From DHVE2 group archaeon (lineage in GTDB: Archaea; Thermoplasmatota; Thermoplasmata; Thermoplasmatales; Aciduliprofundaceae), in NCBI GenBank assembly GCA_026993785.1, contig JALWRZ010000002.1, positions 1-64,000 of the forward strand: a stretch of 64,000 nt of DNA. The letters run 5' to 3'. The translations under genes were made by a program, and so were the position numbers. Positions 13,225-39,257 of the stretch are shown here, piece after piece (within the stretch, counting starts at the first letter, position 1; the number at the start of each line of letters is the position of its first letter). A model generated the notes under the pieces. The model worked only from the letters and a program-made list of their open reading frames with translations. It was not told the DNA's origin and searched no databases.

Positions 13225-13346
13225 CAGCCCCGGGAGGATTCGAACCTCCGTCCGGGGATCTCTCCAAAGCCCTTTGGGGGGTAAAGCACCTTTTTTAAAG
13301 GGGCTTCGCCAGAGTCCCCGATGCTTGACCACTACACCACGGGGCT
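13225..13346 (-). tRNA. tRNA-Gln(CTG) with intron
   Basis: The acceptor stem AGCCCCG pairs with CGGGGCT, the T arm is GGAGG-TTCGAAT-CCTCC, and the anticodon stem GGGGA pairs with TCCCC across an interrupted loop CTCTGG/A, giving anticodon CTG. Mature length is 73 bases with discriminator G; CCA is not encoded. A TATA-like TTTTAATATC lies about 35 bases upstream and a T-run follows the 3' end. Confidence 0.93.
13260..13308 (-). other. 49-base tRNA intron at canonical position 37/38
   Basis: The splice region folds into a strict bulge-helix-bulge: 3-base bulges GGC and AGA flank a 4-bp helix CTCT/GGAG, and the intron closes with a GAAGCCC/GGGCTTT stem. Cutting two bases into each bulge leaves GG at 36-37 and A at 38. 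Confidence 0.9.
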
Positions 13347-36681: not shown

Positions 36682-38445
36682 ATGGCGGATAAATCCTCGC
36701 TGGCCCTGGTAAAAAGATTTCTTAGAGAGGCCATAGCGGAGAGGAAAATACTTGCCATAGTTGTGGTGAGCATAATAGGCTCTGCCCTGGCAACCCTTTT
36801 TGCCCCATATATTTTGAGTATAGCAATAGATGAGTATATAATTCCAGGCAAATATCATGAGCTCATTCCTATTGCACTTTTATATCTTCTTGCCCTTCTG
36901 GCGCAGTGGCTTTTTGCAACACTTCAAACCTTTTACACGGAGGTTTTTGGACAAAAGGTGCTCAAAAATCTAAGGGCAAAACTCCACAGGAAGATTCTGG
37001 ATTCAAATCTGAACTTTTTCAAGGATAAATCCACAGGGGATCTTGTTTCTAGGATAATAAACGATACCAATGTGGTAAACGATGTTCTCTTATCCGGTCT
37101 GCTTGGCGGCCTAGGCAGCATAATCAGTTTGAGCGGTATAGTAGTTGCAATGCTATTCCTGGATGTTAAACTCACGCTGGTAACCCTTTCCAGTGTGCCC
37201 ATAATGGTTCTCATAGCCCTATATTTTGGTGGGAGAATGAGACGGGCTTACCGAGACACAAGACAAAAGATAGCCCGGATTTCAAGCGTAGTGGAAGAGA
37301 GTGTGGCAGGAATAGAGACCATCAAGGCATTCAACAAAGAGAAGCATGTGGAAAAAGAGTTCTCTGCTGCTTCCAAGGACACCATAAAAGCTTATCTGAG
37401 GGTGGCGATTTATATGGGGATATTCTGGCCCCTTATGAATATTGCCAGTCTTCTTTCAGTGATAGTAGTTATAGGCTATGGGGGATATCAGGCCTATATG
37501 GGAGCGGTTAGCATAGGAATCGTTGTAGCCTTCATCCAGTACGCCCAGAGATTCAGAGGTCCCATAAACAATGTGGTGAGCATGTACGACAGTCTCCAAT
37601 CGGCTTTGGCAGCACTGGAAAGGATATATGATGTGCTTGATGATAGAGGGGTTGAGGAATATAAGGGCCTGAATGTAGATAGACTACAAGGGAGAATAGA
37701 GTTCCAGGATGTATGGTTTGAATATGAAAAGGGCAGAGCCGTGCTCCGAGGCATAAATCTTTTCATTTCTCCAGGTTCCAAAATCGCAATTGTAGGCAAA
37801 ACAGGTGCTGGAAAAACGACCATGGCGAATCTTATAATGCGCTTTTATGACCCTACCAGGGGTAAGCTACTTTATGATGGGATAGATGGAAGGGAGATAA
37901 ATAGAAGAAGTTTGAGGCGAAGAATAGGCTATGTTCCTCAGGAAACCTATCTCTTTCCAGGTACGATAATGGAGAATATAAGGATAGCGAATCCTGAAGC
38001 TTCTGAGAGGGATGTGGTGGAAGTATGCAAGAAACTTGGAGTTCACGAATTCATCATGAAGCTCCCAAAGGGCTATGAAACCTCGGCGGGAGAGACGGGA
38101 AAACTTCTTTCAGTGGGCGAGAGACAGCTCATATCCCTGGCAAGGGCAATGCTTAAAGATCCAGATATAGTAATTCTCGACGAAGCGCTATCCAGCGTAG
38201 ATCCCAAAACGGAGAGAATGGTTCAGGATGCCATGCTGAAACTCATGGAGGGGAGGACAAGTATTATAATTGCGCACCGTCTCTCTATAACCCGTTTTGT
38301 GAATAAGGTCATCGTTGTGGATAACGGAGAGATTGTGGAGGAAGGCCCCATAGAAAATCTTCTTCTCAAAGGTGGATATTTCTATCGTCTCTATACCTCT
38401 CAAATGGGTGAATCTTCCCTAATTGATATTTCAGGAAGAGGTTAG
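36682..38445 (+). CDS. ABC exporter half-transporter, catalytic partner
   Basis: 587 residues: membrane domain (about 20-310) and nucleotide-binding domain with Walker A GKTGAGKTT, VPQETYLF, Walker B VILDEALSSVD with intact glutamate, and His loop IAHRLS. The signature is LSVGERQ rather than LSGGE. So the site made by this Walker B and the partner's LSGGE is catalytic, while the other site is doubly altered. Starts 20 bases after the partner with GTGGTG upstream. Confidence 0.92.
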   Translation: MADKSSLALVKRFLREAIAERKILAIVVVSIIGSALATLFAPYILSIAIDEYIIPGKYHELIPIALLYLLALLAQWLFATLQTFYTEVFGQKVLKNLRAKLHRKILDSNLNFFKDKSTGDLVSRIINDTNVVNDVLLSGLLGGLGSIISLSGIVVAMLFLDVKLTLVTLSSVPIMVLIALYFGGRMRRAYRDTRQKIARISSVVEESVAGIETIKAFNKEKHVEKEFSAASKDTIKAYLRVAIYMGIFWPLMNIASLLSVIVVIGYGGYQAYMGAVSIGIVVAFIQYAQRFRGPINNVVSMYDSLQSALAALERIYDVLDDRGVEEYKGLNVDRLQGRIEFQDVWFEYEKGRAVLRGINLFISPGSKIAIVGKTGAGKTTMANLIMRFYDPTRGKLLYDGIDGREINRRSLRRRIGYVPQETYLFPGTIMENIRIANPEASERDVVEVCKKLGVHEFIMKLPKGYETSAGETGKLLSVGERQLISLARAMLKDPDIVILDEALSSVDPKTERMVQDAMLKLMEGRTSIIIAHRLSITRFVNKVIVVDNGEIVEEGPIENLLLKGGYFYRLYTSQMGESSLIDISGRG

Positions 38446-38461: not shown

Positions 38462-38471
38462 TATTTATATG
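38462..38471 (+). promoter_or_regulatory. TATA box ahead of the riboswitch-like leader
   Basis: TATTTATATG lies about 20-25 bases before the first bases of the aptamer, so the RNA would begin almost directly with the sensor. This separates the downstream genes from the ABC operon. Confidence 0.55.
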
Positions 38472-38485
38472 AGAGAAGTATTCGT

Positions 38486-38557
38486 GGATATGGTGATGGG
38501 GCCCACCGTTTAACTGCCCGAGCGGGCTGATGGCTCCTTTTATAAAAGGTGGTCCCT
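38486..38557 (+). ncRNA. Fluoride (crcB-motif) riboswitch candidate
   Basis: The sequence matches the fluoride aptamer in order and pairing. P1 is GGTG (38492-38495) with CACC (38504-38507). The loop ATGGGGCC holds GGGGCC (38498-38503), which pairs as a pseudoknot with GGCTCC (38532-38537), one G-U included. The joiner ends in AACT. P3 is GCCC (38516-38519) with GGGC (38524-38527), followed by the conserved TGATGGC. The Shine-Dalgarno AAGGTGG (38546-38552) can instead pair with CCACC of P1 (plus GGG with CCC), so ligand-stabilised P1 would free it: an ON switch. Downstream are coiled-coil genes, not a known fluoride exporter. Confidence 0.85.
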
Positions 38558-38911
38558 ATGCTTGAAATAGAAATTCCTAAGGAGCTCTTTGAAAAGATTC
38601 AAAATATGCGTGATGAAGGTTTTAGCAGATATCTCTATGAAAAACTTGCGGCTTTGGGAAGACAGTTAGAGCTCACAGATGAGAAGTCCCTTGAGAGAAA
38701 GAAAATGGAGCTTGAAAAGAATATTGAGAGAATGAAGCGAGAACTTAAAGAGCTAACTGAGTTTTGCGAGAGAGCGGAGAAAGACAGAGAGCGTATGCAT
38801 CTCTGGATCGAGATGCTGGAAAAAGAAAACCGAAAACTGTTAGAGGAGATGAGAAGCTATGGAAATCTTGGTGAAGGGAGGATTTCTCCGAAAGAAGAAA
38901 TTCAAGCTTGA
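38558..38911 (+). CDS. Small coiled-coil protein under riboswitch-like leader
   Basis: 117 residues starting MLEIEIPKELFEKI. A short N-terminal helix-strand section is followed by a long charged coiled coil (about 42-105, Lys/Glu heptads). No membrane segment and no recognised family. The ATG lies five bases after GGTGG; upstream in-frame codons overlap that site. Its 3' end overlaps the next gene by 53 bases, so both are made together. The leader suggests induction by fluoride, but the mechanism would be new. Confidence 0.7.
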   Translation: MLEIEIPKELFEKIQNMRDEGFSRYLYEKLAALGRQLELTDEKSLERKKMELEKNIERMKRELKELTEFCERAEKDRERMHLWIEMLEKENRKLLEEMRSYGNLGEGRISPKEEIQA

Positions 38912-39257
38912 AAAATACACAGCTAAGCTTATAGAAGAACTTTCCAGGAAATATAAGATTCCGCCTGAGAAACTTATTCTCATGGCCCTGAAAGAGGAAA
39001 AGTTAGAGCGGGAAAGAAATGAGAGAATGAAGGAACTACAGGAGAAGATATCCTCTCTTCTTGATGAAATGTTTCAGCTCGAGGGAAAATGGGCCTCAAT
39101 TCGCTATAAATCCTATACCTATGCAAAGGAGAACAGAACCCTGGCAATAATTCTCACTGGACATTTGAGCGAGAATCGAAGCTTGAGAAGGATTCTGAAA
39201 AAGAAAAATGCTCATAAGGATATTGAGGAACTGGTAAATTACTACCTTTGGCTTTAA
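38859..39257 (+). CDS. Small basic coiled-coil protein, second gene of the riboswitch-like unit
   Basis: 132 residues. A basic N-terminus (GGFLRKKKFKLEKY) leads to a helix pair IEELSRKYKIPPEKLILMAL, which resembles ribbon-helix-helix-like or CopG-like N-terminal helices only weakly, then a coiled coil and a C-terminal alpha/beta segment. No membrane helix, so it is not a Fluc channel. Out-of-frame overlap with the previous gene implies coupled translation. Function unknown. Confidence 0.68.
   Translation: MEILVKGGFLRKKKFKLEKYTAKLIEELSRKYKIPPEKLILMALKEEKLERERNERMKELQEKISSLLDEMFQLEGKWASIRYKSYTYAKENRTLAIILTGHLSENRSLRRILKKKNAHKDIEELVNYYLWL

Follow-up and report, generated by a model that had tools for sequence, protein, structure and literature searches.

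Known resistance to fluoride is mostly exporter-based, and acidophiles face severe entry of HF. The targets reported for the fluoride riboswitch class RF01734 comprise exporters, antiporters, mutS, formate hydrogen lyase, enolase and pyrophosphatase (PMC2864571, PMC11139923). In the window (the whole 64,000-nt stretch of archaeal DNA analysed here) an aptamer of this class has a different target, namely an unclassified pair of genes for coiled-coil proteins, ORF1 and ORF2. The CrcB/Fluc and CLC-F exporters occur under the same aptamer class elsewhere (e.g., CrcB behind an aptamer in genome G441), whereas ORF1 and ORF2 have no hydrophobic or membrane segment and match neither CrcB nor CLC. Literature searches on Aciduliprofundum and fluoride, on Thermoplasma and fluoride riboswitches, and on coiled coils under a fluoride riboswitch returned nothing relevant, though the original 2012 target list may give such genes as hypothetical.

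A cmscan search of the whole window matched RF01734 at 38483-38546 on the forward strand with 45.0 bits (E 3e-9), 11 bits over the gathering score of 34 bits, and the alignment contains no mispaired position. This was the score by which the earlier note had proposed to judge the motif, and the helices it had drawn are all present on that strand: P1 (GGTG 38492-38495 / CACC 38504-38507), the pseudoknot (GGGGCC 38498-38503 / GGCTCC 38532-38537), P3 (GCCC 38516-38519 / GGGC 38524-38527, paired in the window sequence) and the conserved TGAT (38528-38531). A whole-genome covariance-model search recovered this aptamer as the sole match in the 1.66-Mb genome. Upstream of it, an ABC transporter gene ends at 38445 and a predicted TATA-like promoter box, TTTATAT, follows at 38464-38470 (+); as the box lies about 25 nt before P1, the predicted transcription start falls at or just before the aptamer, much as the earlier note had supposed. 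Similar boxes precede most of the related aptamers. The window leader has in common with RF01734 riboswitches all the aptamer helices, the conserved nucleotides and the position in the 5' leader. Judged by its sequence, the aptamer is a genuine fluoride riboswitch, which would be expected to bind fluoride.

Comparison of the 24 aptamers that lead this gene pair in related genomes revealed compensatory changes in both P1 (GGTG/CACC, GGAG/CTCC, GGCG/CGCC, GGCA/TGCC) and the pseudoknot (GGGGCC/GGCTCC, GGAATC/GATTCC, GGCGTT/AACGCC), with the pseudoknot of G411 being mis-registered by the pattern used for this comparison.

The remainder of the leader carries a platform that, judged by pairing potential, is excluded by the folded aptamer; its predicted action is to cover the ribosome site and not to terminate transcription. 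The ribosome binding site and start codon, AGGTGGTCCCT (38547-38560, +), contain the Shine-Dalgarno sequence at 38547-38552 and the ATG at 38558-38560, and the anti-Shine-Dalgarno strand ATGGGGCCCACC (38496-38507, +) lies in the pseudoknot loop and the 3' strand of P1. The minimum-free-energy fold of the leader is an OFF fold, in which AUGGGG-C-CCACC is paired with GGUGG-U-CCCUAU, covering both the Shine-Dalgarno sequence and the start codon. The pairing of the Shine-Dalgarno sequence with the P1 3' strand, anticipated in the earlier note, is thus seen in the computed fold, with the difference that the alternative helix extends beyond the one described there and also spans the start codon. As P1 and the pseudoknot need the anti-Shine-Dalgarno strand, the OFF fold and the folded aptamer are mutually exclusive. 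The folding energy of this single leader is no better than that of shuffled sequences (z -0.9).

Comparison between leaders bears further on this helix. The element GGTGGTCCC does not vary among the 11 aptamer-led pairs that the genome's own family contains, and its pairing with GGGGCCCACC is part of the predicted helix between aptamer and ribosome site. The same family has a second aptamer class, which precedes a gene for a hydrogenase-type membrane subunit (named by eye) and has a ribosome site that differs from the pair type yet matches its own aptamer; the window's genome has just a distant homologue (29%) of this subunit. Within the family, duplexes of aptamer and ribosome site from the same class reach -18.8 kcal/mol for the pair type and -17.8 kcal/mol for the hydrogenase type, against -12.7 and -13.4 kcal/mol when the classes are swapped. 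The mean for own aptamers beat 2000 of 2000 permutations over 48 leaders, which are related sequences and hence non-independent, and in the other families many leaders show weak complementarity.

The burial of the ribosome site in the minimum-free-energy fold, together with a helix that fits its own aptamer in each of two gene classes, leads us to infer a translational ON switch. Without fluoride, ATGGGGCCCACC would pair with GGTGGTCCCTAT and hide the Shine-Dalgarno sequence and the ORF1 start codon; fluoride and Mg2+ would lock P1 and the pseudoknot, which occupy ATGGGGCCCACC, and the ribosome site would be released. Translation of ORF2 would probably be coupled to that of ORF1 through the overlap of the genes. 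We regard this mechanism as a well supported prediction, based on pairing potential. That the aptamer is instead a relic, or senses another ligand, with the genes outside fluoride control, is highly improbable in view of its score, the compensatory changes in P1 and the pseudoknot and the anti-Shine-Dalgarno helix matched to its own aptamer.

ORF1 (38558-38911, +; 117 aa) and ORF2 (38859-39257, +; 132 aa) overlap by 53 nt; the ORF1 start is best assigned to the ATG at 38558, which corrects the earlier note. In alignments with relatives, seven of eight comparisons of the two frames gave dN/dS values of 0.03-0.34 and one gave 0.79 at low dS; by this measure purifying selection acts on both frames among relatives. 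The description of the products in the earlier note as small, soluble coiled-coil proteins holds. Neither reaches the cut-off of any family in Pfam or NCBIfam; the Pfam, NCBIfam and PADLOC scans gave only generic coiled-coil or ribbon-helix-helix (RHH)-like matches, all below cut-off, and profile searches of the PDB returned essentially generic coiled coils. The AlphaFold2 model of ORF1 (pLDDT 84) consists of two short helices followed by a 64-residue helix (residues 42-105), and that of ORF2 (pLDDT 88) begins with a small N-terminal domain, continues as a helix of 63 residues and ends in a short C-terminal helix. Foldseek found no significant match for either model, every E-value exceeding 1, and no relationship is detectable between ORF1 and ORF2. 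Since the genes overlap and are always paired, and since both products have long helices, the two proteins probably assemble into a heterodimeric coiled coil. They constitute an undescribed protein family under a genuine fluoride riboswitch, the regulated proteins being new and the aptamer standard.

Weak similarities single out the N-terminal part of ORF2. Its predicted strand-helix-helix start may resemble RHH DNA-binding proteins such as CopG, MatP and Arc: the overlay on CopG gives 1.4 A across 38 residues (Foldseek; TM 0.77 by target length, a weak match with E 8.4), and further weak Foldseek matches include MatP, Arc, CdbA and yiiF. PF07704 is matched weakly in four of 40 members (best E 1.1e-4) and by ORF2 itself below the cut-off (E 0.058). 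ORF2 differs from RHH proteins in that the RHH-like part is found in its own family only and leads into a long helix that carries a separate conserved motif; as the shorter third-family homologues lack this part, it does not belong to the conserved core. In the deep-sea vent family to which this genome belongs, both proteins seem to carry N-terminal RHH-like pieces. The RHH-like domain hints, on this weak evidence from models and profiles, at DNA binding; speculatively, the complex in this family could additionally contact DNA and serve as a scaffold or as a secondary regulator of the fluoride response.

To place the locus in a wider context, 117 genomes of the order were searched with an ORF2 profile and RF01734, and the positions were joined, with a link being counted when an aptamer lay less than 1 kb upstream of the pair on the same strand. 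The pair is aptamer-led in 11/13 genomes of its own family, 2/2 of a second and 11/13 of a third. In 24 of the 28 pair-bearing genomes the aptamer thus directly precedes homologues of ORF1 and ORF2, whose association with the motif the earlier note had singled out as a check; genomes of one family are non-independent samples, and what carries weight is that three families are involved and that their aptamer helices differ. By these counts and the compensatory changes in P1 and the pseudoknot, the association of aptamer and pair is not due to chance, and its recurrence in three families points to a novel type of fluoride-response protein, which would have a role against fluoride.

The earlier note's proposal of a new fluoride-response class is thereby borne out in part: against it stand a homologous pair that is aptamer-led in none of the 18 genomes of the order's largest family that have it, and a paralogous coiled-coil pair in the window's own genome that has no aptamer and lies beside cas-like genes. 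Upstream of neither the largest-family pairs nor the aptamer-free paralogous pairs of the own family that were scanned did we find a degenerate aptamer, even at loose thresholds (E 5). Aptamer-free paralogous pairs were located at L118:7276-7984 (G000:C1) and L122:8891-9479 (G399); the genes beside them include one identified by eye as Cas6-like. In a tree of ORF2, the sequences cluster by family, and the aptamer-led and aptamer-free copies of the own family are partly intermixed. As the largest-family pair is never aptamer-led, fluoride control is lineage-specific and the core role of the pair need not concern fluoride alone. The pair might accordingly be a general housekeeping or acid-stress complex over which some lineages gained fluoride control, with fluoride as one inducer of several and the proteins not fluoride-specific. 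The aptamer-free paralogues and the unrelated neighbourhoods of the largest-family pairs speak for this; the retention of an aptamer-led copy in three families, and the fact that its own genome has no other gene unit under fluoride control, speak against it, and we consider it an explanation with clearly less than an even chance.

Whole-genome searches found neither CrcB nor CLC in the window's genome. Across the 18 genomes of its family there are two complete CrcB matches, both in genomes without a detected aptamer, and CLC is absent from all 18. No gene recurred as a fixed neighbour of the pair, and neighbourhoods vary between families. In G034, G068, G393 and G394 an MFS-like permease gene begins about 15-30 nt after ORF2, and in G391 a different permease gene overlaps ORF2 (both named by eye), as would suit a pair that is a transporter accessory, the true target of the aptamer being the permease. 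However, no co-directional permease directly follows in the window genome, in G113 or at the third-family loci examined, where the unit consists of two genes, making this reading unlikely. Inorganic pyrophosphatase is a known fluoride-sensitive enzyme, and at L184, L179 and L183 (G068, G393 and G347, respectively) its gene is divergently oriented and sits about 70-90 nt upstream of the aptamer that leads the pair; in the window's genome it is located away from the aptamer-led pair.

Other genes were also observed behind fluoride aptamers. Another, more distant family within the phylum has small coiled-coil genes (72-107 aa) in this position at L200, L202, L203, L204 and L070 (G163, G172, G208, G126 and G094), most of the aptamers having a long insert. 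These share with ORF1 and ORF2 the aptamer class and a small soluble coiled-coil product, but they differ in their motif, KITxxxFxxKxxxIxxKIRxMDSRMRVL, and by eye have no evident homology to the pair. A dynamin-like GTPase gene follows the aptamer at L011/L037 (G168) and L018 (G177), and within the order a MutS-like protein of about 500 aa is encoded behind aptamers at L039 (G385), L041, L043 and L045 (all named by eye); within the set of aptamers examined, a MutS-led and a pair-led one never shared a genome. Elsewhere in the window, the match to a tRNA gene at 13225-13346 (-) has 52 inserted positions in the anticodon region, which probably represent an intron.

Taken together, we favour, with some confidence, a translational fluoride-ON riboswitch that controls a two-gene unit, the products of which would probably form a heterodimeric coiled coil, maybe a DNA-binding one. 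A further-reaching reading, which we hold tentatively and at somewhat short of even chances, is that the pair represents a dedicated cytoplasmic fluoride-response class, an induced heterodimer giving thermoacidophilic archaea devoid of CrcB and CLC-F tolerance, perhaps as a regulator or by protecting fluoride-sensitive enzymes; in three relatives the pyrophosphatase gene is next to the pair. The window's genome, with no known exporter found, has yet kept a fluoride switch that would drive solely a pair of soluble proteins. The locus thus offers a predicted archaeal translational fluoride switch with clear mutable pairing, and yields a precise prediction, namely that acidophiles may have an exporter-independent response to fluoride.
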